64,000 nt of DNA. Origin: Marinobacter sp. C7. GTDB taxonomy: Bacteria; Pseudomonadota; Gammaproteobacteria; Pseudomonadales; Oleiphilaceae. The notes under the pieces were generated by a model, which saw only the letters and a program-made list of their open reading frames with translations, searched no databases and was not told the origin of the DNA. Location: the NCBI RefSeq assembly GCF_022343555.1, contig NZ_JAKQZH010000001.1, positions 310,001 to 374,000 on the forward strand, given 5' to 3'. This document shows positions 41,822-59,061 of the stretch, in pieces; the stretch's first letter is position 1; every line of letters starts with the position of its first letter. The translations under genes were made by a program, and so were the position numbers.

Positions 41822-42511
41822 TCAGAAGAACAGGGTGATGCCTGACGACAGCTCGATGTTGTGGGTCAGCTGGGACTCGCGGATCAGGTCGCTGTTGAAC
41901 ATGTGGTCCCGGAAGTCCACGTGCACCGTCAGCCAGTCCAGCAGCACGATGCGGAACCCGGTCCCGAGGGTGGTGGTGAAATTGCTTTCGCCACCGAACT
42001 CGGTGTTGCCGACACCGCCCACCAGGTAGAACGCCGAGTTGAACGTCAGTGAATCGCTGAAGAAGATTTCCCCGGGGAAGATGTTGTAGCCCACGAGGAA
42101 ATCGTAATAGCTGTAGTCCCGGTCATCGTCCGTCAATAGCCGGACGTTGGAGCCACTGAGTTCCTCGAAGGAAGTCAGTCCGGCTTCGCTCACCCCGTAG
42201 TTGAATTGCAGGAAGAAGTCCTCAGTAGCGTGGAAGGCTGCGCTGACACCGAACAGGGGTTCACTGCTGAAGTTGTCAATGGTCAGCATGCCGGCAAAGG
42301 CGCCAACCTCGAAGAACTCCGCATCGATATCCGCTTCGCTGATACTGCGGGGCTCGATATCCGGCTCGATCACCTGAACCGGCGCGGAACCGCCCTCCTG
42401 TGCCAGCAGCGGCCCCGACGGCGTCAGTGCCAGCAGCCCGGTTAACAGCGCAATGCCGATGACCCGCGGCTTGCGGGTGCTCAAAAGAACGTGTTGAGAC
42501 CGATTTTCCAT
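41822..42511 (-). CDS. Predicted outer-membrane beta-barrel protein
   Basis: The 229-aa protein has a signal peptide (cleaved near LLAQ, residue 38) and about eight amphipathic strands ending in ...SSGITLFF, a typical outer-membrane-protein C-terminus with a terminal Phe. It resembles the Myxococcus-type outer-membrane beta-barrel domain. It overlaps the preceding SH3-barrel gene by 31 bases, and both diverge from the ExbB/ExbD gene cluster, so it is a good candidate outer-membrane part of that machine. That role is inferred. Confidence 0.8.
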   Translation of the reverse strand: MENRSQHVLLSTRKPRVIGIALLTGLLALTPSGPLLAQEGGSAPVQVIEPDIEPRSISEADIDAEFFEVGAFAGMLTIDNFSSEPLFGVSAAFHATEDFFLQFNYGVSEAGLTSFEELSGSNVRLLTDDDRDYSYYDFLVGYNIFPGEIFFSDSLTFNSAFYLVGGVGNTEFGGESNFTTTLGTGFRIVLLDWLTVHVDFRDHMFNSDLIRESQLTHNIELSSGITLFF

Positions 42512-43290
42512 TCGCTTAAACCTGTGCTGTCAGAATTGGACGACACCGAGTACACCCGATACTCGGCACGGATCAGGAAATTCCTGCCAATGTAGTAACC
42601 CAGCCCACCCCCGAAGGTGACCCCGTCGGCATCCCCCAGATCACTCAGAAGTACTTTTTGCCGGGCGTCGAATGAGAACTGGCTATAACCGGCCAGCGCG
42701 TAGGGGGTTAAGGACCATTGGTGCAGGGGTTCGATCACCAGGTTCGCGCCGTAGTAGTCGCTGGTCACCGACTGGTTATAGATCTTGCCTGCCTCAAGCT
42801 CGGCGCCGAGCCAGGTCAGGGGCCGATAGCCGGCGGTCAGGCTAAAACTTGGGGAGTCCTCGAACATGCCGGCGGTAAATCCCACGCGCCAACTCGATTC
42901 CAGGTACTGGCCATGGCTTACCTCGGGCAGATCGGCAGGAAGACCGGTCGGCTGCAGGGTGCGTCCCAACTGGGTCGCCTTGGTCCAGCCGGTTTCTCCG
43001 GAAACGGCCCGCACCTTGTACCAATTGGTTTTCCGCTTCAGCAGTTCGACCTGTTCGCCTTTTTCAATCACATGAAAAACGGGGTAGCCGCGGCCGGGTG
43101 CCGTGTGCAGCTCGATAAAGGGATCGGCCACCTCCAGAGTGGGAGCGGGATCCGCCGCCTGTGACACCCCGGGACAGGTTCCTGCGACCAGGAACAGCGC
43201 CGTGAAAAATGCCGGCGCCGATGGTTTGCTGGGATTGCCCCTGAAAAACCGGGCAAATCGTGATGTGGTTCTGCACGTCTTCCTGATCAC
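42481..43290 (-). CDS. SH3-domain outer-membrane beta-barrel protein
   Basis: The 269-aa product has a signal peptide (about 1-45), an SH3b domain (about 50-110: ELHTAPGRGYPVFHVIEKGE then NWYKVRAVSGETGW), then a C-terminal beta-barrel-like part ending in LNTFF. SH3b domains often bind peptidoglycan, so the protein could link the cell wall and the outer membrane. The GTG at 43290 has AGGTGG 8 bases upstream and is preferred over the GTG at 43302. It is the first gene of a two-gene minus-strand unit next to the ExbB/ExbD locus. Confidence 0.78.
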   Translation of the reverse strand: MIRKTCRTTSRFARFFRGNPSKPSAPAFFTALFLVAGTCPGVSQAADPAPTLEVADPFIELHTAPGRGYPVFHVIEKGEQVELLKRKTNWYKVRAVSGETGWTKATQLGRTLQPTGLPADLPEVSHGQYLESSWRVGFTAGMFEDSPSFSLTAGYRPLTWLGAELEAGKIYNQSVTSDYYGANLVIEPLHQWSLTPYALAGYSQFSFDARQKVLLSDLGDADGVTFGGGLGYYIGRNFLIRAEYRVYSVSSNSDSTGLSEWKIGLNTFF

Positions 43291-43668
43291 CGGACTGACC
43301 ACCTATTGGGAATGTTAAATTAAGTTAACCAATGTAAATAAATGTTTTTAAATAAAAAAATTTTGAGTTGCGGGGAACTTTGGCCGTCAGCCCGGCGTTA
43401 GGCAACTGTCTCTTGGTTTTTTTGCGAAGGCCTCCACAGAAACAGAATCACGGGTCAAATCCTCCATTCCCATTCTGCGAAGCTGTGCTAGCGTATTTCA
43501 CATTATTTGACGATCGAAACATCCCAAAAGAAATCTGACCGCTTTCCAGGAAAAAAGGGCCGCTAAAAAGAGCCTTCGGAAACCAGGCCAGAGAACTCAA
43601 AAGTCAGTCCCCTGAATGTTCACTTAGCGTTGTCGGCAGCGTTTCTGGCAAGCCGGCGCAGGAGCAGG
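43291..43668. other. AT-rich divergent promoter region of the envelope-machine locus
   Basis: This 378-base gene-free stretch separates the minus-strand barrel genes from the plus-strand ExbB/ExbD cluster. Bases 43312-43370 are strikingly AT-rich (runs of A and T, with TTAAATAAAAAAATTTT) against a GC-rich background. I see promoters as likely for both directions but no clear boxes, and no repeat. Confidence 0.5.
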
Positions 43669-44349
43669 ATGGTGGCTTTTCTATCTGAAAATGGACTGTG
43701 CGGTGCTTTCGGCACCGGCTTGCGGAGCCGTCGTGGGGTTCTGGTGTTGCTGTGCCTGATTCTCGCGGGCGCGCCGGCCAATGCGACCGAACCGGCAACC
43801 GGCAGCGAGGATGTGCCCGGAGAGTCCGCGGCCGGTGTCGCCCTGGACCGCATTATCGAGACTCCGCTGTCTGTCCGTGAGAGCCGTGAGAGGGCGCAGC
43901 GGGCGGTCAACGAACTGTCGCGGGATATCCAGGACCTGAAGCAAACCGTTGTGACCCTGAACAAGGATCTCCGGGTGCTGGAGGAAGATCTGCTGTTCCC
44001 GGCCAACACCCGGTTTCACGTCTTTGTTTCCCTCAACGTGGGGGAGTACTTCCGCCTCGAAGGGGTAGAGCTGCGCCTGGATAACCAGGTCGTGTCCACC
44101 TACCTGTACAGCGCTGAAGAGCGCCAGGCGCTGGCGAAGGGCGGTAAGCACCAGCTGTATCTCGGCAATCTGAGCCCCGGCCAGCATACCCTGTCCGCGT
44201 TCTTCGTCGGCCAGGGGCCCAATGGTCGTGAGTACAAGCGTGGCAGCAGCCTGCGCTTCACCAAGGAACAGGGCCCGAAATTCGTCGAGCTGGCGGTGGC
44301 AGATTCCGAAGCCCGTCAGCAGCCCGAATTCATGGTTCGGGAGTGGTAA
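43669..44349 (+). CDS. Exported coiled-coil protein of the envelope machine
   Basis: A 226-aa protein with a signal-type N-terminus (hydrophobic about 20-37, ending near ANA), a heptad-rich coiled coil (about 62-105: LSRDIQDLKQTVVTLNKDLR) and a C-terminal beta domain of about 100 residues (FHVFVSLNVGEYFRLEGVEL, LSPGQHTLSAFFVG). I do not recognise the family. The ATG at 43669 has GGAG 4 bases upstream; a TTG at 43630 would lengthen it. It is the first gene of the plus-strand cluster; the next gene starts 3 bases after its stop. Confidence 0.78.
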   Translation: MVAFLSENGLCGAFGTGLRSRRGVLVLLCLILAGAPANATEPATGSEDVPGESAAGVALDRIIETPLSVRESRERAQRAVNELSRDIQDLKQTVVTLNKDLRVLEEDLLFPANTRFHVFVSLNVGEYFRLEGVELRLDNQVVSTYLYSAEERQALAKGGKHQLYLGNLSPGQHTLSAFFVGQGPNGREYKRGSSLRFTKEQGPKFVELAVADSEARQQPEFMVREW

Positions 44350-44352
44350 GCC

Positions 44353-46131
44353 ATGAGTCTCCGGTCCGTAATTCAGCAGGCAAGGTCCCTCCGGGCGGTA
44401 GCGGCGTTGATGTTCGCGTTACCTGCTGCCGCCACGGTATCGGCTTCCGGGACAGAAGCCCGGGACCTCAAATACGGGGCAGTTCTGTTCCAGTACTACC
44501 AGCAGAATTATTTCGAAACCCTGGTCGAGTACGCCTGGGCCGAGGAGCACGGCGGCATTGCCAACCACGGTACCTATCCGGAACTGCTCAAGGGTGGCGT
44601 CAGCCTGTCCTATGGTCTGGACGATCAGGCCGAAGCTATCTTCGATCGCCTTGCCGAAAGTAATCTCAGCGAGCCGGTACGCAACCGCGCCCGTTTTTAC
44701 CTCGGCAAGATGCAATACCTGCGTGGGGAGGCCGACACCGCCGCCCGCAACCTGAACCAGATCCGTGGTGAGCTGCCAGATAGTGTCGACGCCGAGTACC
44801 GCTACCTCGCGGCACTGGTCAATGTGAAGCTGGGGCACCTGGATGCCGGCAAGGCCGTGGCTGATACCATCAACGAGGACAGCCCTTACGCACCCTATTT
44901 CTACTTCAACCTCGCCATTGCTCTGGAAGGGCAGGGCCGCACCGGCGACGCAATCGAGGCCCTGAACCTGGTCCTCGAGCTTAACGACGGTTCCGCCGAG
45001 TTGCAGCGGCTGGCGGACCGGGCCCGTATGGCTCTGGCCCATGTCTATGCCAGCCATGATGATAACCTGAATGCCGGGCTGCAGCTGGCCAGCATCAACA
45101 CGACAGGTGCCTATTCCAATCGCGGCCTGTTGGGCGCCAGCTGGATGGCCATCAATGCGGGCGAATTCCGACGCGCGTTGGCCCCGCTCGACGTGCTGAC
45201 CTCACGCTCCCGGGCTCTGCCCGAGGTGCAGGAAGCCATTCTGCTTCGGCCCCATGTGTACGAGCGTATGGGGTTGGAGGGGCGCGCCGCCAAGGACTTT
45301 ATCGCCGCAGATCTGCAGTTCCGGACCACCCTCAGGAAGCTCCGGACAGCCCGGGAGGCCCTCAAGAACGCAGATGTCCTGGAACTGTTCGTCCGTAATC
45401 TCGACGACGTGCTGGACGAGAGCGACTGGTTCGGCAGGGCGCCGGCCGTAGCGGTCAACCGCCTGTCGCCGTTCCTCGTGGAGCTGATGTCGGATCACAG
45501 TTTCCAGTCAGTGCTGAAGGACCTTCGGGATCTGTATGCCATTCGCAATAACCTCGAACGCTGGAAGGAACGCCGGTCAGACTTTGACACCATCATGGCA
45601 GCCCGGGCCGGCAGCGCTGATGGCCCCAGTCACGGCGACCGTGTGCGTCTGATTTCCCGCTCCCTGGCCGATACCAGGGAACGACGCCAGGCTCTGAATG
45701 CCCGCCTCGCCGGGCTGCCCGAGGACAAGCGCGAGTCCATCGAGTGGTTGCTGGAGGACCTTACCTTCGAAATCACCCGGGCCGAAAGCGCGTTGGCCGC
45801 TCTCCAGGGCAGCAGGGCGCTCTCGGACAACAGCTATTTCGAGGAGTCGGTCGTTCGGATGATGGCCGAGGTCGACGCCCGTCTGATCCAGACCGAAAGC
45901 CTGATCGCCCGACTGGAAGACGTCATGCTGGCTCTGGTTACCACCGAACTGGACATCCATGAGCAGCGACTCAAGCAGTACCAGGTGGAGGCCCAGCTGG
46001 CGAAGGTGCGAATTCTGGACCGGTCCCTGCAGACGTTGAATCCGGACGAGGAGGTGCCCGCCAGTCCGGGTTCCGAGCAGGCGCAAAGCCAACCGTCTCC
46101 AGAGGAGGGAACCGGCGATGAAACGATCTAG
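44353..46131 (+). CDS. TPR-repeat exported protein
   Basis: This 592-aa protein has a signal peptide (about 1-33) and an N-terminal series of TPR-like helical repeats (LKYGAVLFQYYQQNYFETLV; NRARFYLGKMQYLRGEADTA; FNLAIALEGQGRTGDAIEAL), followed by a long helical, coiled-coil-rich C-terminal half. TPR proteins act as scaffolds. It overlaps the next gene by 14 bases, indicating coupled translation in the ExbB/ExbD cluster. The specific role is unknown. Confidence 0.82.
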   Translation: MSLRSVIQQARSLRAVAALMFALPAAATVSASGTEARDLKYGAVLFQYYQQNYFETLVEYAWAEEHGGIANHGTYPELLKGGVSLSYGLDDQAEAIFDRLAESNLSEPVRNRARFYLGKMQYLRGEADTAARNLNQIRGELPDSVDAEYRYLAALVNVKLGHLDAGKAVADTINEDSPYAPYFYFNLAIALEGQGRTGDAIEALNLVLELNDGSAELQRLADRARMALAHVYASHDDNLNAGLQLASINTTGAYSNRGLLGASWMAINAGEFRRALAPLDVLTSRSRALPEVQEAILLRPHVYERMGLEGRAAKDFIAADLQFRTTLRKLRTAREALKNADVLELFVRNLDDVLDESDWFGRAPAVAVNRLSPFLVELMSDHSFQSVLKDLRDLYAIRNNLERWKERRSDFDTIMAARAGSADGPSHGDRVRLISRSLADTRERRQALNARLAGLPEDKRESIEWLLEDLTFEITRAESALAALQGSRALSDNSYFEESVVRMMAEVDARLIQTESLIARLEDVMLALVTTELDIHEQRLKQYQVEAQLAKVRILDRSLQTLNPDEEVPASPGSEQAQSQPSPEEGTGDETI

Positions 46132-48967
46132 TCTGCTCATGCTGGCAGTCATGGTCAGCGGCTGTGGCAGTTTTCAGAATCCCTCCACCATTGCCAGCCT
46201 CCAGAAGGAACAGCGGCCTCTTGAGGATGTGCCGCTGCCCAGGGTGATGCATGAGGACGTTCGCCGGGAGTACCGCGAACTGCTGGAAACCATCGAGGAT
46301 CGGCGGCTGTACGAACAGATCGAGCGCCGAATTGCCAGCGTGTACATGCTGGAGGGGGATTATGACCAGCTGCGCGGCGTGATGCCGGGGGACGACGGCT
46401 ATTTCCCGGAAGCGATCACCGCCTATCACCAGCTGCTGAACAAGTACCCGGACTCCGAGCGCAATGCCGAAGCCATGTACCAGCTGGCCAAGGCCTATGA
46501 CCTGGACGGTCGCGACCAGGAAGCCAAGGCGGTGCTGGAGGAGTTCATCGCGACGCATCCGCATTCGAAACGCCTGGCCGAGGTGTATTTCCGTAAAGGT
46601 GACATCCACTTCCGCCACGAGGAGTATGAGCAGGCGGAACAGGCCTACCGTTCGGTCGTGGCGATCGGCAACGAATCCGCGTTCCTGAACAACTCCTGGT
46701 ATCTGCTCGGCTGGTCCCAGTACAAGCTGTCCGACTACGACCAGAGCCTGATGTCCTTCTCCCGGGTCCTGGACCGCCTGGTGCCCGAAGACGGCAAGAT
46801 CGAGAAGCTGGACAAGGTTAACCGTTCCCTGGTGGACGACACCCTGCGCATCATGAGCGTGGGGCTGGCCTATGCCGGCGGTTCCTCGAAAATCGACGCG
46901 ATGTTTGCCAACCGGCCAGAGGCCAGGAAGTACACCTGGATTCTCTATTCCAGCCTCGGCCAGCATTACCTGGAGAAGGAGCGGTATGAGGATTCGGCGT
47001 CCTCATTCCGGGCCTTCGTGGTGCAGAACCCGGATTCCGAGCGGGCACCGGAGATGCACGCCGAGATGATCCGTGCCTATGTCGATGGCGAGTTTTCCCA
47101 GCAGGTGCTGCCGGAGAAAGAGAATTACGTTCGCAACTACGGCATTCATTCCGATTTCTGGAAGACCAAGCCGGCGGATGTCAAAGCCAAGGTCATTCCC
47201 AACCTGAAAACCTTCATCGACGAGCTGGCACGGCACTACCATGCCACCGGCCAGCGTCTGACCCGGGAACTGGCGGATGGAGCGGTCAAGGCGTCGGCCG
47301 TGGCCGCTACCGAAGCATCCCGTCAGACCAGCTTCCTCAAGGCCGCCCAGTTCTATGGCGAGTTTGAACAGACCTTCCCGAACGACCCGAAAGTCCCGGA
47401 AATGGTCTACATGCGGGCCGAAGCCGCTTTCGACGGTGGCGATTACCCGACGGCTATCACCCACTACGAGCGGACCGCCTACGAGTTCGGCAATTCCGAG
47501 TTCGGTGCCGATGCCGGCTACGCTGCCATCATTGCCTACCAGAAGGAGGCTGAGCGCCTGATGGCCCAATCGGGCAATGACAGCGAGCGGCTGCGTGCCT
47601 GGCGCAGCAAAGGTGTCGAAAGCCAGCTGCGGTTCGTGCAGACCTTCCGGGATGACGAACGCTCCGGTTCGGTCCTGGCCAAGACGTCGGAAGAACTGTT
47701 TGCGCTGGGCCGGTATGAAAAAGCCCTGGAAGTGGCCACCAGCATTGTCAGCCGGGCCGGCGAGGTGGATCGCGAGCTGAATCGAACCGCCTGGGGCGTG
47801 ATTGCCCACAGTCAGTACGAACTGGCTGACTATGCCGCGGCCGAAGAGGGCTATCGCAATCAGTTGCGCTATATCGATCTGGATGATCCCGAGTTCAAGG
47901 CGGTTACCGAGCGTATGGCGGTCACCATCTACAAGCAGGGTGAGCAGGAAATTGCCGCCTCCAACCTGGAGGGCGCAGTCGAGCACTTCCTGCGCATCAA
48001 GACGGTGGCGCCGAAGACTGACGTCCGTGTGGTGGCCCAGTTTGATGCCGCCACCCACCTGCTGACCCTGACCGAGTGGGAGCCGGCACTGACCGAGATG
48101 CTCGAACTGCGCCGCCTGTTCCCGAACCACAAGCTGGCCAAAGACCTGGATCAGAAAATCGCCTGGACGTACGAGCAGGACGAACAGTGGCTGATGGCAG
48201 CCAGGGAATATGAGGACATCTACCGCACCGATGGCAGGGCCGACGTGCGCCGCGATGCCCTGTTCCTGGCGGCGGAGCTGTATGAGAAAGCCGGCAACGA
48301 GGACCAGGCGCTGGAGTATTTCAAGAAGTGGGCCTTCGACTACGAGGAACCTTTCGATACCCGAATGGAAGCCCGCTATCACGTCGCGTACCTGTATGAG
48401 CGTCGGGACGACTACCACCGCCACCTCTACTGGCTGCGCCGGGTGATCGATGGCCACAACAAGGCACCTGAGAACTGGCAGTCGGACCGCTCCGCCTGGC
48501 TGGCGGCCTGGGCCAACAACAAGTACGGCGACTACTGGCGCATCGAGTTTGATCGGGTACGCCTGAAACACCCGCTCAACAAGAGCATCCCGCGCAAGAA
48601 CGAGAAACTGAAGAACGCCCTGGACCGGTATCAGCAGGCGGCCGATTACGGCGTGCTCGACCAGACCACCCGGGCCACTTTCAACATTGCCGACCTCTAC
48701 GGCCAGTTTGCCCGGGAACTGATGGACGCTCCGCGGCCCAGCGGCCTGAGCCAGTTGGAGGCCATGCAGTATGAGCTGGTGCTGGAAGAGCAGGCCATTC
48801 CGTTCGAGGACCTGGCGATAGAGGTGCATCAGGCCAACATCGAGCGCTCCTGGAGCGGCACATTCAATCCCTGGATCGAGCGCAGCTTTGAGGCGATGGC
48901 CAAGCTGATTCCCGCCCGGTTCGATAAACAGGAAGTAAAGGTGGCCTATGGCGATGGTATCCGTTAA
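46118..48967 (+). CDS. Large TPR lipoprotein of the envelope machine
   Basis: The 949-aa product is a lipoprotein (lipobox VSGC, Cys16) built almost wholly of TPR-like repeats, for example EAITAYHQLLNKYPDSERNA, AVLEEFIATHPHSKRLAEVY and YEQAEQAYRSVVAIGNESAF. It is by far the biggest scaffold of the locus. TPR lipoproteins are typical of the periplasmic arm of envelope-spanning machines. It overlaps its neighbours by 14 and 20 bases. Function is inferred from context only. Confidence 0.84.
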   Translation: MKRSSLLMLAVMVSGCGSFQNPSTIASLQKEQRPLEDVPLPRVMHEDVRREYRELLETIEDRRLYEQIERRIASVYMLEGDYDQLRGVMPGDDGYFPEAITAYHQLLNKYPDSERNAEAMYQLAKAYDLDGRDQEAKAVLEEFIATHPHSKRLAEVYFRKGDIHFRHEEYEQAEQAYRSVVAIGNESAFLNNSWYLLGWSQYKLSDYDQSLMSFSRVLDRLVPEDGKIEKLDKVNRSLVDDTLRIMSVGLAYAGGSSKIDAMFANRPEARKYTWILYSSLGQHYLEKERYEDSASSFRAFVVQNPDSERAPEMHAEMIRAYVDGEFSQQVLPEKENYVRNYGIHSDFWKTKPADVKAKVIPNLKTFIDELARHYHATGQRLTRELADGAVKASAVAATEASRQTSFLKAAQFYGEFEQTFPNDPKVPEMVYMRAEAAFDGGDYPTAITHYERTAYEFGNSEFGADAGYAAIIAYQKEAERLMAQSGNDSERLRAWRSKGVESQLRFVQTFRDDERSGSVLAKTSEELFALGRYEKALEVATSIVSRAGEVDRELNRTAWGVIAHSQYELADYAAAEEGYRNQLRYIDLDDPEFKAVTERMAVTIYKQGEQEIAASNLEGAVEHFLRIKTVAPKTDVRVVAQFDAATHLLTLTEWEPALTEMLELRRLFPNHKLAKDLDQKIAWTYEQDEQWLMAAREYEDIYRTDGRADVRRDALFLAAELYEKAGNEDQALEYFKKWAFDYEEPFDTRMEARYHVAYLYERRDDYHRHLYWLRRVIDGHNKAPENWQSDRSAWLAAWANNKYGDYWRIEFDRVRLKHPLNKSIPRKNEKLKNALDRYQQAADYGVLDQTTRATFNIADLYGQFARELMDAPRPSGLSQLEAMQYELVLEEQAIPFEDLAIEVHQANIERSWSGTFNPWIERSFEAMAKLIPARFDKQEVKVAYGDGIR

Positions 48968-49811
48968 GGCATCCACCCCGGCAACGTTGCTGGTGCTGGC
49001 CATGCTCTCCGGTTGCGCCGGGGTTCTGCAGGTCAAGCAGTCAGAACCAGAGCCGAAGGTGGTTGAGCCCGAGCCCAGTCAGACCGAAACGAAGACCAAT
49101 GTGGCCGAGGGCAGCGGTGGCGCGTTCCTCCCAAAACAGGAGTACGACGCCGAAGGGAAGAAAATTCCCTATGTTCCCGCACCCAATCCGTACACCGAGC
49201 AGTCTGCGCCCGTTCCGCCGGCGGCGAGGTCAGCCTTTGCCGACGCTCTGGCGCTGATGAAGGACGGAGAGCTGCGCCTGGCCCGTAAGGGATTCTGGGC
49301 CATGACCAAGGCGTTTCCGGAGCTGTCCGGCCCCTGGGTGAAGCTGGCCGAGCTCTCCGAACAGCGGGAGAAACCCGAACAGGCCAGGGAGTACTACCGC
49401 AAGGCGCTGGAGGTGAACCCGGCCAACGTCAATGCCTACCTGAAGCAGGCGGTATTCGAGCGGCGACAGGGCGAGTTTGACAAGGCCCGCGATGCGTACC
49501 TTGCCGCCCTGGAAACCTGGAACGACTTCCCCGAGGCGCACCTGAACCTGGCGATCCTCTACGACCTCTACATGAACCGGCCGGAGGAGGCCCAGCCCCA
49601 TTACGAGGCCTACGACTTCCTGACGGGCGGGTCGGATCCAAAAGTGGCCGATTGGCTGATCGAGATCCGCCGCCGGACCGGCATTGAAACGAGCTTCATT
49701 GATAACCCTCCCCCGGAGCCGGAGGTGCCTGCTGAGCAGGCCGCCGAGGGCGAGGCGGTATCTGCGGACGCTACCACCGGGGGCTCCCCGGAAACCGAAG
49801 AGCAAGGCTAG
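48948..49811 (+). CDS. TPR lipoprotein
   Basis: A 287-aa lipoprotein (lipobox LSGC in LVLAMLSGCAGV) with a disordered Glu/Pro-rich linker, three TPR-like repeats (about residues 105-215, for example ALEVNPANVNAYLKQAVFER) and an acidic C-terminal tail. The first ATG overlaps the previous gene by 20 bases; a second ATG two codons later is possible. It is a likely outer-membrane-attached partner of the larger TPR lipoprotein. Confidence 0.82.
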   Translation: MAMVSVKASTPATLLVLAMLSGCAGVLQVKQSEPEPKVVEPEPSQTETKTNVAEGSGGAFLPKQEYDAEGKKIPYVPAPNPYTEQSAPVPPAARSAFADALALMKDGELRLARKGFWAMTKAFPELSGPWVKLAELSEQREKPEQAREYYRKALEVNPANVNAYLKQAVFERRQGEFDKARDAYLAALETWNDFPEAHLNLAILYDLYMNRPEEAQPHYEAYDFLTGGSDPKVADWLIEIRRRTGIETSFIDNPPPEPEVPAEQAAEGEAVSADATTGGSPETEEQG

Positions 49812-49820
49812 GAGAGTGCC

Positions 49821-50141
49821 ATGGGAATCCTGAATCCGGGAGCCGGCTGGCTCGTTGCGGCGGCTCTGTGTGTCGGCTGTGTGGCGATGGCTCCGGCCAG
49901 CGCCCAGGAGTCCATCGATCTTGAGAGTACCTTCGTCGGCGACAAGGAGCAGCCGTCGGTGAGTTACTTCATTCCCTGGAAACCACCTGAGGGGCCGGAA
50001 AACCTGTATCGCTCGATCACGTCCGTGTCTGGCCGGGTATTTGAAGTGGTGGATCGGGACGTCCATGCCCGCACCATGCGCTTCTATGACGAACTTTCCC
50101 TGGAGGCCCCGGCGGGGTCCCCGGGGCAAAGCACTAACTGA
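49821..50141 (+). CDS. Small exported protein of the envelope machine
   Basis: A 106-aa protein with a signal peptide (hydrophobic 10-27, cleavage near ASAQ) and a short mature domain with an SYFIPWKPPEGPENLYRS motif. It matches no family I know. It lies 9 bases after the TPR lipoprotein gene and 41 bases before the exbB-like gene, so it is probably co-transcribed and part of the same system. Confidence 0.7.
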   Translation: MGILNPGAGWLVAAALCVGCVAMAPASAQESIDLESTFVGDKEQPSVSYFIPWKPPEGPENLYRSITSVSGRVFEVVDRDVHARTMRFYDELSLEAPAGSPGQSTN

Positions 50142-50182
50142 AAATCTGCAACCGAACGAAAAGAAAAGTCTGGAGATCTGCC

Positions 50183-50848
50183 ATGAACGTTTACGCAAGC
50201 ATTGTTTCATTCTTCCAGGAAGGCGGCGCCTTCATGTTCCCGATCGCGCTGGTCCTGATTATTGGCCTGGCCATTGCCGTTGAGCGCTGGTTGTTCCTCA
50301 AGCGCGCCTACCAGTCCAACCGCGCAGCTTACAGCGAGCTGCTGCCGCTGATGAATGAAAGCAAATTCGATCAGGCCGAGCAGGCAGCCCAGTCTGGCAA
50401 CTCCGCAATTTCCCGCCTGATCTCGGTAGGGCTGGACACCATGCGCGCTTCCCCGCGCCGGGATGATATCCACGCCGCCATGCAGGAAGGTGTGATGGAG
50501 AGCATTCCTCGCCTGTCCAAGCGCACCAACTATCTGTCCATCCTCGCCAACGTCTCCACGCTGTTGGGACTGCTGGGTACCATCATCGGTCTGATCGCCG
50601 CCTTTACCGCCGTTGCCAACGCCGATCCGGCGGACAAGGCGACGCTGCTGTCCCAGTCCATCTCGGTGGCCATGAACACCACCGCTTTTGGTCTGATCGC
50701 CGCGATCCCGCTGCTGCTGATCCACTCCCTGCTCCAGAACAAGACCCTGGAGATCGTCGAAAGCATTGAAATGGCCGGTGTGAAGGCCCTGAACACCATC
50801 GTTCGCAGCAACCGTGAATCTGTTAATACGCGTGCCTCCGACGCCTGA
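50183..50848 (+). CDS. MotA/TolQ/ExbB proton-channel family protein
   Basis: The 221-aa protein has the ExbB/TolQ topology: an N-terminal helix (about 14-36, FMFPIALVLIIGLAIAVERW), a cytoplasmic loop, and two more helices (about 114-140, STLLGLLGTIIGLIAAFTAV, and 152-180, SISVAMNTTAFGLIAAIPLL). It forms the stator channel that couples the proton gradient to work across the envelope. Two ExbD/TolR partner genes follow directly. GGAG precedes the ATG. Confidence 0.93.
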   Translation: MNVYASIVSFFQEGGAFMFPIALVLIIGLAIAVERWLFLKRAYQSNRAAYSELLPLMNESKFDQAEQAAQSGNSAISRLISVGLDTMRASPRRDDIHAAMQEGVMESIPRLSKRTNYLSILANVSTLLGLLGTIIGLIAAFTAVANADPADKATLLSQSISVAMNTTAFGLIAAIPLLLIHSLLQNKTLEIVESIEMAGVKALNTIVRSNRESVNTRASDA

Positions 50849-50867
50849 TCACAGCGGGTAATTCGTT

Positions 50868-51398
50868 ATGTTTTCAAAACGTAGAGAACAGGAAGAGGCG
50901 GATATCGACATCACGGCGTTCATGAATCTCATGATCGTCCTGGTGCCGGTACTGCTGATGAGTATGGTGTTCAACCATATCTCGATTCTGGAGCTCAACC
51001 TGCCTGACCTGACCGGAGCCCAGACCGCCAGTGCGGAAGAGAACCGGCAGCTGGAAGTGGTGGTAAGGCAGTCCGGCATCGAGGTGTATTACCCCAGCGG
51101 TAACCTGGTCAAGAGCATCGACAAGCTTGAACCGGAAGACGAGGGCGGGGAAGCACGCCACGATTTCCGTACCCTCTCCGAGGTTTTGCAGGAGATCAAG
51201 CGCCGGCTGGCGGCGAAGAACATCGCCAAGAACGACGCCCTGCTGCTGTCCGAGCCCGGTGTAACCTACCAGTCGCTGGTGTCGACCATGGATACCCTGC
51301 GGGTCGCCAAGACTGTGGTCGTGACCGATGCGGTTGATGTCGAGTTGTTCCCGGAGATCTCCCTCGGCGATGCACCGGAGAAGGGGGGTAAGTCATGA
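50868..51398 (+). CDS. ExbD/TolR-family protein lacking the membrane Asp
   Basis: The 176-aa protein has a short cytoplasmic start, one transmembrane helix (about 16-38) and a periplasmic domain. Aligning ITAFMNLMIVLVPVLLM with the usual ExbD helix (T-x-x-x-D-V-x-L-V-L) puts Asn20 at the site of the proton-carrying Asp. The second ExbD keeps the Asp. The gene overlaps that second exbD by 4 bases. It is probably a structural or regulatory partner in a mixed ExbD pair. Confidence 0.9.
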   Translation: MFSKRREQEEADIDITAFMNLMIVLVPVLLMSMVFNHISILELNLPDLTGAQTASAEENRQLEVVVRQSGIEVYYPSGNLVKSIDKLEPEDEGGEARHDFRTLSEVLQEIKRRLAAKNIAKNDALLLSEPGVTYQSLVSTMDTLRVAKTVVVTDAVDVELFPEISLGDAPEKGGKS

Positions 51399-51898
51399 AT
51401 GGCAAGTTTACCTCTTTCGGTCTCCAGGGCAGCGCCAAAACCTTCATGAAGCCGGCCAAACTCAACCTGGTCTCGCTCATGGACATCTTTACCATCCTGG
51501 TCTTCTTCCTGCTCCTGAACTCCGGAGCCAACCAGCTGATCAAGGTGAACGACGTCTCCCTGCCGGACTCCACCGCAGAAGAACGTCCGAAGGAAACCAC
51601 TGTGGTGACGATAACCGAAGACGACATCCTGGTGGATGGTCGCCCGGTAGCCACCCTTGATGAGGTGATCGCCTCGGACGGCCTGATTGATGGCCTGATG
51701 GATGAGTTGACGTTCCAGGCCAGCAAGCGCACGGAACTGACCGAGCGGGAGAAGAGCCTGGGGCGTGCAGTGACCATCCTTGGTGACCACGAAATCCCCT
51801 ACGCGCTGCTCAAACGGGTCATGCTGACGTGCGCGAAGGTGGACTATCGGGACCTCTCCATGGCCGTTTCACGGGTATCCGGCAGCAGCGGCGCCTGA
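51395..51898 (+). CDS. ExbD/TolR-family protein with intact membrane Asp
   Basis: A 167-aa ExbD/TolR with an N-terminal amphipathic region and one helix (KLNLVSLMDIFTILVFFLLL, Asp30 in the conserved position). The periplasmic domain follows. Together with the ExbB-like channel this Asp should provide the proton relay. It overlaps the first exbD by 4 bases, and the AgmX-domain gene follows after 13 bases. Confidence 0.92.
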   Translation: MNGKFTSFGLQGSAKTFMKPAKLNLVSLMDIFTILVFFLLLNSGANQLIKVNDVSLPDSTAEERPKETTVVTITEDDILVDGRPVATLDEVIASDGLIDGLMDELTFQASKRTELTEREKSLGRAVTILGDHEIPYALLKRVMLTCAKVDYRDLSMAVSRVSGSSGA

Positions 51899-51911
51899 CA
51901 GGAGGGATTCG

Positions 51912-52856
51912 ATGACAGCAATGACAGCAACACCCCATGACTTTTCATTGCCCTGGGACGCCAGTGGCGACGAAGACAGCCGCTTCAAACGCATTCTCAA
52001 GCGTTTACTGCTGCTGCTTCTGTTGCTGGCGGTGATCTTCCCCTGGCTGCCCCTGCCGGAAATCGACCGGGAGGAGAAGGAGCGTGTACCCCCGACTCTT
52101 GCCAAGGTGCTGATCGAGCAGCGCAAGGTGGCACCGCCACCTCCGCCACCCGAGCCAGTGAAACAGGAAGAGAAGACCGACCCGGTCGAGAAGAAGGCGA
52201 CACCGGAGCCGGCTCCTGCAAAGGAGGTGAAAAAGGCCCGGGAAAAGGTTTCAAAGATGGGCGTCGCGGCCTTCTCCAAGGAACTGTCGTCCCTGCGTAG
52301 TTCGCTGGATGTCGCCAAGCTCCAGGCTCAGAACACCAACGTGAAAACCGGTGCTGCCGCCAAGGCTGCCCGGTCGGTGCTGGGGGCCACCTCGGCCACC
52401 AAGACCAGCGGCGGTGTAAACAGCTCCGTGATGAACGATACCGGTTCTGGCACCCAGCTGGCGGGTAAAGGCTCTACCGCGGTGGAAAGCCCCATCGGCA
52501 GCGGTTCCGGTGGCGGTGGCAGCGGCGCCAGTGGCAACGGTGGCTCCCGCAGTTCGACGGTGACCGGTGGCCGGGACATGGAATCTATCCGGCGGGTCTT
52601 CGAGCAGCACAAAGGTGCCATCTACGCGCTCTACAACCGGGCACTGCGCAGCGATCCCGGCCTGCAGGGCAAGTTTGTCTTCCACATCGTGATCGAACCG
52701 GACGGCAGTATCTCCAGCATCAAGCTGGTGGACAGCCAGTTGGGGGACCAGCGCCTGGAGCTGAAACTGCTGGCGCGAATCCAGATGATCTCGTTCGGGC
52801 CGGAAGACGTGGCGGCGACCCCCGTCAATTACAAGTTTGATTTCATGCCTGGTTGA
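51912..52856 (+). CDS. TonB-like energy transducer with AgmX/PglI C-terminal domain
   Basis: The 314-aa protein has a TonB layout: a short cytoplasmic start, one membrane helix (about 30-48, LLLLLLLLAVIFPWLPL), a Pro/Glu/Lys-rich stalk (PPPPPPEPVKQEEKTDPVEK), a helical segment, a Gly/Ser linker and a C-terminal domain (about 222-314: IRRVFEQHKGAIYALYNRAL, KFVFHIVIEPDGSI). The C-terminal part is of the AgmX/PglI type, found in the Myxococcus gliding machinery. It should span the periplasm and transmit force from the ExbB/ExbD stator. Confidence 0.88.
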   Translation: MTAMTATPHDFSLPWDASGDEDSRFKRILKRLLLLLLLLAVIFPWLPLPEIDREEKERVPPTLAKVLIEQRKVAPPPPPPEPVKQEEKTDPVEKKATPEPAPAKEVKKAREKVSKMGVAAFSKELSSLRSSLDVAKLQAQNTNVKTGAAAKAARSVLGATSATKTSGGVNSSVMNDTGSGTQLAGKGSTAVESPIGSGSGGGGSGASGNGGSRSSTVTGGRDMESIRRVFEQHKGAIYALYNRALRSDPGLQGKFVFHIVIEPDGSISSIKLVDSQLGDQRLELKLLARIQMISFGPEDVAATPVNYKFDFMPG

Positions 52857-52922
52857 TGAAGGCGCCGGGCCCGGCTACCGCCGGGTACCGGTGCAACGGA
52901 TGTTCAGGTGGAGAGAGATATC

Positions 52923-55838
52923 ATGATCGGATTAAGCAGCGGATTGCGCCTCCTGGCCCTGGCCAGCCTCGGACTGGTCGGGTTGACCGGATGTTTTGAG
53001 GGACAGATCAGCGAAGGGCAGGAGGAAATTCTTTCCGACCGGCCATTCGCTTATGTGGTCCGGGACTATCCTGAGATGGGTGACACCGCCTCGGTCAATG
53101 CCCGGCCGCCGCTGGATCCCCGTGCACCCTACGCGTTCAAGCCCGGGGCCCAGCTGATGGTTCGGGACCGGATCGCCCTCAGCTCGGACGAACGCCACGT
53201 GTTGGCCGGGTATTTCGGCGGAGACTATGATGTCAAGGACTTGGACATCTCGCCGGACGGCGAGCGCATGGTCTTTGCTGCCCATGGTCCTGCGGACAGT
53301 CCGGACAACTTCACCTGGAACATTTTCGAGTACAGCTTCGCCACCGGTAAGGTGCGGCGCATCTTCGAGGACGATCTGGTCGCCAATGCCGGTGAGGACA
53401 CCAACCCCACCTACACCAACGAAGGCCGGATCATCTTCTCCTCCAGTCGCCAGCATTCCCGGGGCGACTGGCAGAAGCTGGATCTGCGGGAATATCTGGA
53501 AGATTTCGATGAGCCCGCCTCGCTGCTGCACTCGGTAAAACCGGACGGCAGCGAGCTGGTGCAGATCACCTTTGGCCAGTTCCATGACATCGAGCCCAGC
53601 ACCATGAACGACGGGCACGTCGTCTTTATCCGGTTCGGACGCATCTACGAAACCCTGACCGACTGTACCCTGGAGAATATTGACGATCCCAACTTCAACC
53701 AGCACCCCCACGGCGGCGGGTATGGCCAGGGCAATGGCGGCGGGTTCCCTTCGGGCCTGGAGGATCCGAAGGAATGGACTGTGGAAGACAAATGCAGCGC
53801 GTCGCTGGCCGGTGAGGTCGAGGGCGAGCGTATCTTCGTGGAAGACGTGCTCAGCATGTACCGCATCACCCCGGCCGGCGGCAACGTGCACCGCTACTTT
53901 GGCAGTCTGAGCGAAGAATTCTCCGACGCGTCCTTCATCCATTACATGGACCCGATTCCTCTGGACGACGGCAACCTGCTCACCACCATGCGCCACATCT
54001 ACAACCCGATCTACGGCGGCGATGTGGTGAAAATCAACAGCAAGAATTTCTTTGCCGTGGGCAAGCCCGTGGACGAGAGCGTGATTGGGGAAGCCGAGGA
54101 GTCCATGACCCCCGGGCTGGTGAATTTCTACCCCAACCAGGTGTCCCCGAATGGCTGGTACAGCGCCGTGGCACCCTACAACGATGGCTCTGCCCGACTG
54201 CTGGCCAGCTGGGCCCAGTGCCTGACCACCGATGGCACCACCAGCACTCCGTGTGAGGGCAGCGCGACGACCGGGGATCTCGGCGAGCCACGATACGGTA
54301 TCTGGATGGTGGACCCCACCGAAAACACCCGGTTGCCGGTGGTTCAGGGTCACGAGCGTGCGCTCTACACCGATATCGTGATCGCGGATTACAACGAGCT
54401 GGCCCAGCCCTACACCGGTGAGCGTCACGACCTGCAGCTGGAGGACAATACTGCCCTGTTCGAGATCCGCAGCATCTACGATATGGACGGCACGGACATG
54501 GCGGAACTCTACGACGGTGGTATCGAGACCCGTCGGGATCCGAGCCTTACCCGCCCGGATGACCGGTCCGAGCGTTTCATCCGGGTTGTTGGCGTACGCC
54601 AGATTCCGCCGGAGCTGGAGCAGGCGATTCTGACCAACGAAATCCTGAACCCGCCCGATGGTCCCCAACCGCCACTGGGACTGACCCCGCTGGTGGGTTC
54701 CGGTAACCGGATCCTCTACGATGTGTTGTCCTACGCTATGGTCGAGCCCGACGGCTCCGCCATGGTCAAGGTGCCGGCGGACACCAACTTCAGCTTCGAG
54801 GTGGTCAACAAGTACGGCAAGCGGGTCGACCTGATTGCCAGGCCGGACTACAACTACAACTACCTCGTGCAGCACCCTCAGCCGCTCTTGCTGGAAGAGG
54901 GCGAGAAACTGAAGTGTTACGGCTGTCACGACCCGGAAGTGGACATCCCGCATGCCCGTACCGATGTTGAACTGGCCTCGGCCAATCCGGGGGCTCCGGG
55001 CGACGGCATGCCGTTCCCCAACGCCAATCCGAAGATCCGGGCGGTGCAATGGAAAGACACCATGGCCCAGGCACTGGTCGATTCGCTTCAGGGCCTGCAG
55101 GCGACCTGGGCGGACACCATGCAATTCGAGGATTTCTGGACCAATCCGCCCGATCCCTCACTCGCATTCGAAGTGCGGTATAGCGGATTGACCACACCGC
55201 GACCGGTTACTGATCCCAGTTGCCTGATCAACTGGACTGCGGGTTGCAAGGCCACCATCAACTATCAGGAGCACATTCAGCCGATCTGGAATGAATGCCG
55301 GGTGGACCCGAACCAGAACGTGGTCACCTCCTGCCAGAACTGCCATCGGGCTGCGGAGAGCAAGTCCTGTCCGGATGGGGTCGGCGGCGGTGGTGCCAGT
55401 ACCGACCTGCTACTTGGTAACGGCAATGCCTCCTGGGACGGCCGTCAGCTGGAATCCTATGTCGAACTGTTCGAGCCGGACTACTACATTCGTGAGACCG
55501 CCACCGGAGACTGGGTCGAAGTCGATGAATCCAACCTCGCTGCCGAGTGCCCGGATGGTGTCCAGGGCGATATGACGGTCCTGCCGGATCCGGGAGTGTG
55601 CTTTGCCCGTCGCCTGATGAGCGGCCGTGGCGCCATCGCCAGCGCCCGTTTCTTCAGTCTGTTTGATAACGACCCGGATGACGACGAGTACCAGGTGGAG
55701 ACTGCGGAAACGGCCGCGATCAGACAGAGCCACATGGGCATGCTCACCGAAGCTGAGCTTCGCCTCATTGCAGAATGGCTCGATACCGGCGCCCACATCT
55801 ACAACGACCCGGACAAATTCGAATTTCCGACACAATAA
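52923..55838 (+). CDS. Di-haem HzsA-like beta-propeller lipoprotein
   Basis: This 971-aa protein has a lipobox (LVGLTGC), PD40-like propeller repeats (ISPDGERMVFAAHGP; NEGRIIFSSSRQHS) and two c-type haem motifs, C665YGCH669 and C804QNCH808. It resembles the HzsA-related group (hydrazine synthase alpha-subunit relatives), which are widespread in bacteria that do not make hydrazine. The ATG at 52923 has GGAGAGAG just upstream; a GTG at 52908 is an alternative. It follows the AgmX-domain gene and would be a periplasm- or surface-facing redox component. The function is unknown. Confidence 0.83.
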   Translation: MIGLSSGLRLLALASLGLVGLTGCFEGQISEGQEEILSDRPFAYVVRDYPEMGDTASVNARPPLDPRAPYAFKPGAQLMVRDRIALSSDERHVLAGYFGGDYDVKDLDISPDGERMVFAAHGPADSPDNFTWNIFEYSFATGKVRRIFEDDLVANAGEDTNPTYTNEGRIIFSSSRQHSRGDWQKLDLREYLEDFDEPASLLHSVKPDGSELVQITFGQFHDIEPSTMNDGHVVFIRFGRIYETLTDCTLENIDDPNFNQHPHGGGYGQGNGGGFPSGLEDPKEWTVEDKCSASLAGEVEGERIFVEDVLSMYRITPAGGNVHRYFGSLSEEFSDASFIHYMDPIPLDDGNLLTTMRHIYNPIYGGDVVKINSKNFFAVGKPVDESVIGEAEESMTPGLVNFYPNQVSPNGWYSAVAPYNDGSARLLASWAQCLTTDGTTSTPCEGSATTGDLGEPRYGIWMVDPTENTRLPVVQGHERALYTDIVIADYNELAQPYTGERHDLQLEDNTALFEIRSIYDMDGTDMAELYDGGIETRRDPSLTRPDDRSERFIRVVGVRQIPPELEQAILTNEILNPPDGPQPPLGLTPLVGSGNRILYDVLSYAMVEPDGSAMVKVPADTNFSFEVVNKYGKRVDLIARPDYNYNYLVQHPQPLLLEEGEKLKCYGCHDPEVDIPHARTDVELASANPGAPGDGMPFPNANPKIRAVQWKDTMAQALVDSLQGLQATWADTMQFEDFWTNPPDPSLAFEVRYSGLTTPRPVTDPSCLINWTAGCKATINYQEHIQPIWNECRVDPNQNVVTSCQNCHRAAESKSCPDGVGGGGASTDLLLGNGNASWDGRQLESYVELFEPDYYIRETATGDWVEVDESNLAAECPDGVQGDMTVLPDPGVCFARRLMSGRGAIASARFFSLFDNDPDDDEYQVETAETAAIRQSHMGMLTEAELRLIAEWLDTGAHIYNDPDKFEFPTQ

Positions 55839-55857
55839 AATAATAAGGAGACGTAAC

Positions 55858-56535
55858 GTGACCATGGCTGTGACCCAGGAGGATGTAATTGAACTGGATC
55901 GATGGAGCGTGCCAGACCTTGAAATGGAACGGGACGGCTGGAGTGTCCCGCCCCGGGACAGCTGGCGGATTGACCGCCGGTTGCGCCAGACACGGGTATC
56001 CGCCAAAACCAGCACACTGTTTACGCGGTTCAGCAGCCATTACCTGCTGATTCAGACCAACCGGCGCAAGAAAGACCTGCCGGAGCAGGTGATTGACCTG
56101 ACCTTCGTTCAGGAAGAACCCAGGGAGATCCGGGATTACCGACTGGGGCTCTGGCTCGCCGGCGCCATCTGCATGACCGTTCCGGCGGCCCTGTACTCGG
56201 TATTTCCGGCACCGCTGCCCTGGCTCATCGCGCCGCTGATCCTGGCCGTTGTTTTCATGTCGGTTGCCGTGCGCACCACCCGGCATGTGTTCGAGTTCCG
56301 GGCTCTGAACAGTGATGTTGTGTTATTTACCATCGACGCCCGGACGCCGAGCCGGGAACGTGTGGATCTGTTCCTGAACGAGCTCCGTGAGGGCGTGCTG
56401 CGCGGCCAGCGTCAGCTGCCCGAAGGTAAACGGCGAATTCCCTTGGCTGTTGCGGAAATGCGTCGGCTGGCGGAGTCAGGAATGATCGGCAAAGACGATT
56501 ATGAGCAGATCAAGCGCAACTGGTTTGCCATGTGA
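55858..56535 (+). CDS. Two-TM membrane protein at the end of the envelope-machine locus
   Basis: A 225-aa protein with a charged soluble N-terminal region rich in Trp (DRWSVPDLEMERDGWSVPP), two adjacent membrane helices (about 112-150) and a C-terminal cytoplasmic helical part. I do not recognise it. The GTG at 55858 is chosen because GGAG lies 7 bases upstream; the ATG at 55864 is 13 bases from it. It starts 19 bases after the cytochrome lipoprotein and is probably the last gene of the cluster. Confidence 0.75.
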   Translation: MTMAVTQEDVIELDRWSVPDLEMERDGWSVPPRDSWRIDRRLRQTRVSAKTSTLFTRFSSHYLLIQTNRRKKDLPEQVIDLTFVQEEPREIRDYRLGLWLAGAICMTVPAALYSVFPAPLPWLIAPLILAVVFMSVAVRTTRHVFEFRALNSDVVLFTIDARTPSRERVDLFLNELREGVLRGQRQLPEGKRRIPLAVAEMRRLAESGMIGKDDYEQIKRNWFAM

Positions 56536-58695: not shown

Positions 58696-59061
58696 TGGTG
58701 GAGACGGCGGGAATTGAACCCGCGTCCGCCAGCACTCAGCCTTGAGGTCTACATGCTTAGTGTCCTTCTATTGATTTAACCTCAAGCGACCCGAAGGTCA
58801 GGGTGCAAGAGGCGAGCTCTTTAATCTTAGCCGCTATCCAGTGAGCTCTGGGTAGCGGAGCAGCCTATAAGCGATGACGTCCTGGGATGTTGCTACTGAG
58901 TTATAGGCGCCTCAGCCAGGACGACTGGAACGGCTTACGCCGCCAGTGCGTAGTTTTCGTCGTTTGCGACTATTTTAAAGCAGCTTTGGATTTACGAGAT
59001 TCGCTGCCATCTCGACATGCACCCAAGGGTTCGTCACCGGCGTCGAAGCCAAGTCGTCCCC
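58696..59061 (-). ncRNA. ssrA: Transfer-messenger RNA (tmRNA)
   Basis: The 366-nt RNA begins GGGGACG and ends CGTCTCC-ACCA, giving a seven-pair tRNA-like acceptor stem with an encoded CCA. The 3' arm has the T-loop GGTTCAATTCC pattern. The internal reading frame (58967 to 58935) encodes the tag ANDENYALAA and a TAA. It rescues stalled ribosomes together with SmpB, whose gene lies 1.5 kb away. Confidence 0.97.
58935..58967 (-). other. tmRNA proteolysis tag ORF (ANDENYALAA)
   Basis: The ten codons and stop, GCA AAC GAC GAA AAC TAC..., lie within ssrA and encode ANDENYALAA, the typical gammaproteobacterial degradation tag ending in ALAA. Confidence 0.95.

Follow-up and report, generated by a model that had tools for sequence, protein, structure and literature searches.

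At positions 41822–56535 of a 64,000-nucleotide stretch of Marinobacter sp. C7 (the window; NCBI RefSeq assembly GCF_022343555.1, contig NZ_JAKQZH010000001.1, positions 310,001–374,000, forward strand), 13 genes encode an Agl-Glt/Nfs-type envelope machine together with two predicted outer-membrane barrels (bA and bB) and a predicted lipoprotein with two CxxCH motifs (Hz). In our tentative reading, which we hold as somewhat short of probable, proton flow through the machine moves or gates Hz at the cell surface, where Hz passes electrons. The sequences themselves show which genes are present, how they are ordered and which families they match, that barrels, Hz and GltD strictly co-occur, and that the two ExbDs bear an invariant Asn/Asp pair. 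What the reading adds by inference is movement, proton use and electron transfer. The strongest clue to the job is the two-heme-motif lipoprotein in the operon, together with the redox partner genes of relatives. The initial annotation of the locus left the job open among surface transport, motility and polymer handling and overlooked the heme clue; its Agl-Glt interpretation was upheld. It spanned Hz, the largest gene, and the adjacent gene Y, and described neither.

The core of the locus is the known Agl-Glt core and is not new in itself. As stated in Luciano 2011 (PMC3169522), a core complex of gltC, gltD, gltE and gltG with aglR, aglQ and aglS, of unknown function, is found in non-gliding Gammaproteobacteria, is duplicated in two Marinobacter, and is accompanied by an additional gene without a Myxococcus homologue. 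The core genes of the window all lie in one cluster, which includes two extra genes without a detected Myxococcus relative, X1 and X2. Likeness to Agl-Glt beyond generic folds was recovered with gammaproteobacterial profiles. The GltD profile matches the NfsD-position protein of Myxococcus sp. CA023 (hhalign 100%, 857 columns, E 5.5e-43), the GltE profile the NfsE-position protein (99.1%, 154 columns) and the GltG profile the NfsG-position protein (98.8%). The GltC-like profile matches the NfsC-position protein at 95.8% but NfsD at 99.8%, and its membership is uncertain, since one set of TPR repeats readily aligns with another. Equivalog cut-offs were not reached by the GltC-like (NF033756, 17.1 of 450 bits), GltE-like (NF033758, 33.5 of 225 bits) or GltG-like protein (NF033760, 42.3 of 650 bits), so these are distant homologues and not equivalogs.

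Of the 369 gammaproteobacterial genomes sampled, 88 encode GltD. The list of GltD places holds 115 entries, two of them from the window's own genome; 72 of the 113 others, picked mainly for room on the contig, were fetched and are the gammaproteobacterial core loci counted below. X1 is present in 63 of these 72 loci and X2 in 68. The X1 and X2 profiles matched nothing in eight Myxococcota and Geobacter stretches, and their hhalign values against five Myxococcus proteins reached at most 18.5% and 8.6%, GltF not being compared on its own. The AlphaFold2 model of X1 has no PDB fold match at E ≤ 0.001. Several X1 relatives are labelled "AraC family transcriptional regulator" in public records; the label is probably wrong, as X1 looks exported.

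A second Glt core cluster lies elsewhere in the same genome (L012:6539-14587; C25, about 1.55 Mb). It lacks barrels and Hz, and its X1 and the following TPR part are fused as one 564-aa protein. A related long protein directly follows GltG in 9 of the 72 core loci (L058, L150, L152, L171, L174, L177, L178, L182 and L219). It is 1,610 aa in L150, and most of the others are cut by the stretch end; the one scanned gave a weak DUF11 match only. This protein is perhaps a different load of the machine.

A gliding machine is another candidate explanation, and the core is shared with the Myxococcus gliding motor. MglA is the cytoplasmic Ras-like regulator of Myxococcus gliding. No relative of it was found at E < 1 among window open reading frames (ORFs) of at least 60 aa, nor among the ORFs of the sampled gammaproteobacterial and Marinobacter loci, the search being confined to these loci and not the whole genome. 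An initial remark that cytoplasmic motility regulators are missing here thus stands for MglA only. Pfam and NCBIfam scans took in 10 of the 13 locus proteins, that is, all except X2, ExbB and Y. No gliding equivalog scored above its cut-off among these 10, and the FHA domain was not found by Pfam in the GltG-like protein. On the MglA and equivalog results gliding was rejected, and we regard it as the least probable explanation. As a separate observation, a record titled Comamonas sp. KCTC 72670 (L066) encodes an MglA 98% identical to that of Myxococcus alongside Glt/Nfs-type loci; the organism name is probably wrong.

By its sequence, bA belongs to the GltA/GltB/NfsA barrel family. Its closest named relatives are from Marinobacter (93% to M. 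pelagius). Barrel bB scores 25.2 bits with TIGR04565, below the cut-off of 60, and the bA and bB profiles match each other (hhalign 97.1%). The gammaproteobacterial bA profile matches a barrel beside Myxococcus GltC (hhalign 93.6%). Myxococcus genomes were reached via MglA, and four genomes were searched with TIGR04565. Myxococcus sp. CA023 has two barrels (168 and 119 bits) beside a protein scoring 1092 bits as GltC, and its Nfs-like locus has two barrels (193 and 71 bits) ahead of C, D, E and G. These orders are the gltB-gltA-gltC and nfsA-nfsB-nfsC arrangements, so TIGR04565 holds barrels of those positions. An OmpA-type barrel elsewhere in the window's genome scores 58.7 bits (hhalign to bA 95.9%). 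The model is therefore not wholly specific, and orthology of bA rests on position as well as score.

Strong barrels, with TIGR04565 scores of at least 112 bits, occur at 57 places in 56 of the 369 gammaproteobacterial genomes. GltD is present in 56 of these 56 genomes against 13.4 expected (hypergeometric p 1e-43, with genomes treated as independent, which they are not). The barrel and TPR genes are thus co-conserved, and the possibility that these are orphan barrels present by chance was rejected. Five of 62 table rows were dropped from the count, all below 62 bits (one from the window's own genome and four from genomes without GltD). The two barrels had been described as diverging; two are indeed present, in tandem, and they diverge from the core operon and not from one another. 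In PMC3169522 the genes gltA and gltB are restricted to Myxococcales and Bdellovibrionales, the line of their published origin; barrels of the GltA/GltB family in gammaproteobacterial clusters would change that view.

An ExbB, two ExbDs and a TonB-like C-terminus are also the parts of a TonB-kind nutrient uptake system. The barrels are small, TonB_C scores 17.6 of 24.6 bits, and no TonB-dependent transporter was found among the 10 proteins scanned. Nutrient uptake was rejected on the last two results and is highly improbable.

Hz is linked to GltD throughout Marinobacter. Among 81 genomes, 43 encode Hz and 66 encode GltD, and Hz lies within 7 kb of gltD at 43 of 44 places; the remaining one is alone on its contig. 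At 15 places Hz is 3.9–4.0 kb downstream of window-type GltD, and at 28 it is 5.9–6.8 kb upstream of another GltD type and about 33% identical. None of the 59 other GltD places has Hz within 20 kb. Not counted here are a broken GltD (G408, two fragments) and second Hz fragments. The score line between GltD types was drawn post hoc, and the Hz-less paralog of the window's genome lies outside the 59.

Gene order was read in 16 Marinobacter loci. All seven window-type loci have bA and bB facing X1-C-D-E-X2-R-Q-S-G-Hz-Y, and all six second-type loci have Hz-bB-bA-thioredoxin-DUF3570-X1, followed by core genes to the end of the fetched stretch (GltC and GltD are one ORF in L263, and the genes of L264 are broken into pieces). 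The three loci of the remaining type have neither Hz nor barrels. Y, which adjoins Hz in the seven window-type loci, was seen in none of the 72 other gammaproteobacterial core loci. Hz stands beside the core in two different positions and has thus been retained by the machine across a rearrangement. The alternative that Hz is a stray downstream gene was rejected on this ground and on the 43 of 44 linked places. The window type (16 genomes) and the upstream-Hz type (28 genomes) occur together only in G410 among the 81 genomes, as if one replaces the other.

A GltD tree shows nine changes of Hz label against about 30 in shuffles. It is a quick FastTree tree from a fast alignment, with two Myxococcota rows as outgroup and a long-branch warning, and several of its "no Hz" labels were judged within the fetched stretch only: those of L045, L050 and L053, whose genomes all have a DUF3570 on another contig, and that of L055, where a DUF3570 is located just beyond the stretch.

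The CxxCH motifs of Hz are CYGCH and CQNCH at residues 670 and 809, and the protein also has a lipobox and PD40 repeats. In an alignment of 46 sequences the second motif never varies and the first hardly does. Among Hz proteins of at least 750 aa, 43 of 43 have at least two CxxCH motifs and 36 of 43 a lipobox; these 43, like the 41 linked DUF3570 proteins discussed below, may include copies of one gene from overlapping loci. In the redox reading, Hz would bind heme, be located at the outer membrane and serve as the load of the machine. A PDB search with the single Hz sequence returned nothing; one with the Hz profile gave matches. The AlphaFold2 model (pLDDT 81.9) matches the hydrazine synthase alpha subunit best (5c2v_A, E 9.7e-22, 13% identity), with TolB next. 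Hz is not named a hydrazine synthase because PF18582 falls under its cut-off and no hydrazine-synthase partner subunit was matched among the 10 locus proteins scanned.

The propeller-like likeness raises a Tol-Pal-like alternative, in which Hz would be a TolB-like propeller, the motor would pull the outer membrane inward for envelope integrity, and the hemes would be secondary. In the fold search with the Hz model TolB ranks second in kind, it is also the second hit of the Hz profile search, and the ExbB protein matches TolQ structures as well as ExbB ones. The two ExbDs, however, score 21.7 and 22.3 with the TolR equivalog against a cut-off of 127.3, no Pal-type (OmpA) domain was found among the 10 proteins scanned, and the distribution over 88 of 369 genomes is patchy. 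We consider a Tol-Pal-like role improbable.

The motor named in the initial annotation, an ExbB and two ExbDs with an AgmX/PglI-type TonB-like transducer, is present (Table 1). At the proton position, ExbD1 has Asn and ExbD2 has Asp in all 61 aligned loci. The ExbD2 residue, Asp30 in the window, occupies the known proton-carrying site of ExbD-type proteins. The invariant pair suggests that in the gammaproteobacterial motor each pair of ExbDs has a single working Asp. The gammaproteobacterial R, Q and S profiles all score the same Myxococcus exbB-exbD-exbD locus best among the 12 ExbD places of that genome (L278/L279; 176 bits with the AglR profile), and this locus is probably aglRQS itself. 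It has Asp in both ExbDs, the AglQ-type residue being Asp28 counted from the first Met. Single PDB searches with ExbB and GltG gave only generic ExbB/TolQ matches and chance linker matches. Seven of the 72 cores (L057, L155, L165, L172, L181, L210 and L211) bear barrels and Hz and have no Q, S or G in the fetched stretch; in six of these seven genomes there is another core that has a motor. In Myxococcus, Nfs borrows the Agl motor encoded elsewhere, as described in PMC3858216.

Relatives of the locus add redox genes. Barrels and DUF3570 lie upstream of X1 in 19 of the 72 core loci, and the upstream extension of these encodes Hz in 19 of 19, a thioredoxin-like protein in 18 and DUF4266 in 18 (bA of L223 is masked by a longer ORF and is visible in the L057 reading). 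In 11 of 11 stretches with DUF3570 farther from gltD, Hz, bB, bA and DUF3570 stand together, with a thioredoxin-like gene recognised between them in nine. Hz is therefore present in 30 of 30 barrel/DUF3570 blocks read. The 19 blocks were chosen for barrels and DUF3570 and the 11 for linked DUF3570; the test is the presence of Hz and, in the 11, also of the barrels. In 10 of the 11, Hz diverges from a gene for a 412-aa protein with a heme motif; next come a LamG gene bearing heme motifs and, mostly, a gene for a Tat-type exported protein. The families of the block are thioredoxin-like AhpC/TSA, DUF3570, ApbE (in some), DUF4266 and LamG.

DUF3570 proteins fall into two score groups in the 369 genomes, separated by a 160-bit line that was drawn after the scores were seen. 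Among the matches listed, high-scoring (classic) DUF3570 lies within 30 kb of gltD at 1 of 64 places and low-scoring (divergent) DUF3570 at 41 of 61, with gltD present in 55 of the 56 genomes of the latter group. The count covers 92 of 94 genomes: minor second fragments were set aside, as were G136 and G076, whose matches are weak; with these two included, 56 of 58 genomes of the low-scoring group have gltD. A divergent DUF3570 is found within 4 kb of 54 of the 57 strong barrels, and the window barrel is among the three exceptions. In Meheust 2021 (PMC8238504), ApbE is shown to flavinylate a DUF3570 protein, and thioredoxin-like and DUF4266 genes are found clustered with this family; the main text of that source does not mention gliding, ExbB or TPR.

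Polymer handling is the main rival to the redox reading, though in itself unlikely. Here the locus would be an Nfs-kind surface polymer transporter that moves or wraps a secreted polysaccharide, Hz would bind or modify the polymer, and the hemes would serve polymer oxidation. PMC3858216 describes both Nfs and Glt of Myxococcus as movers of carbohydrate polymers. The LamG-domain protein with CxxCH motifs is often beside the block of relatives, and among the distant relatives of Hz a few are long proteins, including two with the record name "fibro-slime domain-containing protein". Against polymer handling, no glycosyltransferase, polysaccharide exporter or polymerase family scored above cut-off among the 10 locus proteins scanned, and the conserved partners of relatives are DUF3570, thioredoxin-like and DUF4266 genes, not polysaccharide genes.

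In the mechanism that we propose for the redox reading, proton flow through ExbB, ExbD1 and ExbD2 would move the GltG-like protein. The stroke would be relayed through the periplasm by the GltD-, GltE- and GltC-type TPR proteins and handed on by the barrels to surface-located Hz, a redox lipoprotein that would be the cargo of the machine. In Myxococcus, Agl-Glt/Nfs machines transport surface cargo by proton force, and cargo specialisation has been proposed (PMC3858216). The redox function leans on the block of relatives, with DUF3570 and usually thioredoxin-like and DUF4266 genes. Motor-driven extracellular electron transfer, with a heme lipoprotein here and flavin and thiol carriers in relatives, might even be the ancestral job of the machine behind Myxococcus gliding, an idea we consider doubtful.

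Several observations weigh against the redox reading. The Asp needed in Myxococcus AglQ, whose D28N change stops the machine (PMC3858216), is missing from ExbD1, and the assignment of GltC is weak. The TM-scores of Hz and 5c2v_A are modest (0.39 by Hz, 0.47 by target), and PF18582 in Hz is just below its cut-off (26.0 of 26.6 bits). No strong barrel is present in 32 of the 88 sampled gltD genomes, and 47 of the 88 have no linked divergent DUF3570 among the matches listed, so the core is also used in other ways or with other partners. The strict flavinylation motif [ST]GA[ST] occurs in only 10 of the 41 linked DUF3570 proteins and a looser Dxx[ST][GSA]A[ST] site in 40, which makes flavinylation likely for some and possible for others. 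A genome search found no DUF3570 in the window's genome, so Hz would be the only redox component left here. No relative of the LamG cytochrome was found in that genome either, in a search without a positive control.

The two minus-strand barrel genes, which overlap by 31 bases, face an 11-gene plus-strand operon across a gap of about 370 bases, as read from the ORF map and translations (Table 1). Intergenic spacing from X1 to Y is -20 to +51 bases and fits one operon. The ORF of X1 spans 43630–44349, and the start at 43669 is the most likely, from database protein P0230 (226 aa). The three TPR proteins of the initial annotation, two of them with a lipobox (genes starting at 46118 and 48948), were confirmed, and its small exported proteins correspond to X1 and X2, whose exported look was judged by eye. 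A promoter scan gave fewer sites than shuffled sequences, and a terminator scan about as many. Just past the locus, a tmRNA gene with the tag ANDENYALAA lies on the minus strand at 58696–59061.

Table 1. Genes of the locus, with window coordinates, strand and supporting evidence.
Gene and product	Coordinates	Strand	Evidence
bA, predicted outer-membrane barrel, GltA/GltB/NfsA family	41822–42511	-	TIGR04565 165.3 bits, cut-off 60; 229 aa
bB, predicted outer-membrane barrel with N-terminal SH3	42481–43302	-	OMP_b-brl 42.2 bits, SH3_3 37.6 bits; 273 aa
X1, probably exported; predicted long helix (likely coiled coil) and all-beta domain	43669–44349	+	AlphaFold2 mean pLDDT 74.5
GltC-like TPR protein	44353–46131	+	TPR_6 27.6 bits; GltC assignment weak
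GltD-like TPR protein, predicted lipoprotein	46118–48967	+	Lipobox; hhalign
GltE-like TPR protein, predicted lipoprotein	48948–49811	+	Lipobox; hhalign
X2, small, probably exported (by eye)	49821–50141	+	At Myxococcus GltF/NfsF position; without shown sequence relative
AglR-like ExbB/TolQ channel	50183–50848	+	PF01618 96.6 bits, genome profile search
AglQ-like ExbD1	50868–51398	+	PF02472 37.8 bits; Asn20
AglS-like ExbD2	51395–51898	+	PF02472 49.3 bits; Asp30
GltG/AgmX-like TonB-like transducer	51912–52856	+	NF033768 62.1 bits, cut-off 40; no FHA in Pfam scan
Hz, predicted lipoprotein, 976 aa, two CxxCH	52908–55838	+	PF07676 30.0 bits; PF18582 26.0 of 26.6 bits
Y, hydrophobic stretches (by eye)	55864–56535	+	Likely start 55864

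Non-gliders have been known to carry the Glt core since 2011, without a function for it, and with GltD in 88 of 369 genomes the gap is large. A concrete and testable job follows for one form of the core from its link to a heme-motif lipoprotein, joined in relatives by thiol and flavin carriers. Among the titles listed by searches of the open-licence literature of PubMed Central, none joined the Myxococcus gliding machine and flavinylation, which is not proof of absence. What appears new relative to the 2011 core is the partner set of barrels, Hz and the redox genes of relatives, which was not found in print within that literature.

Compared with the Agl-Glt core as described in PMC3169522, the locus has the same clustered GltC/D/E/G- and AglR/Q/S-type genes, an extra gene and the setting in Marinobacter, of which two are named there; it differs by the TIGR04565 barrels and by Hz, which is in every barrel-bearing locus read. 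The flavinylation clusters of DUF3570, DUF4266, thioredoxin and ApbE in PMC8238504 have their genes in the block of relatives (ApbE in some); the DUF3570 group of the present relatives is divergent and tied to gltD, and the window's genome has no DUF3570. Hydrazine synthase alpha (5c2v) is the best fold match of Hz, which also has two CxxCH motifs and differs by its lipobox and the low identity. Tol-Pal has a TolQ/R-like motor and a counterpart to the TolB-like part of Hz, whereas the TolR score here is far under its cut-off and the Pal domain is unmatched among the 10 proteins scanned. Myxococcus Nfs has the same order of barrel, barrel, C, D, E and then G, and some gammaproteobacterial barrel cores have no nearby motor, as Nfs uses the Agl motor from elsewhere. 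The window differs from Nfs by a motor in the same operon and by Hz, to which relatives add DUF3570, thioredoxin-like and DUF4266 genes.

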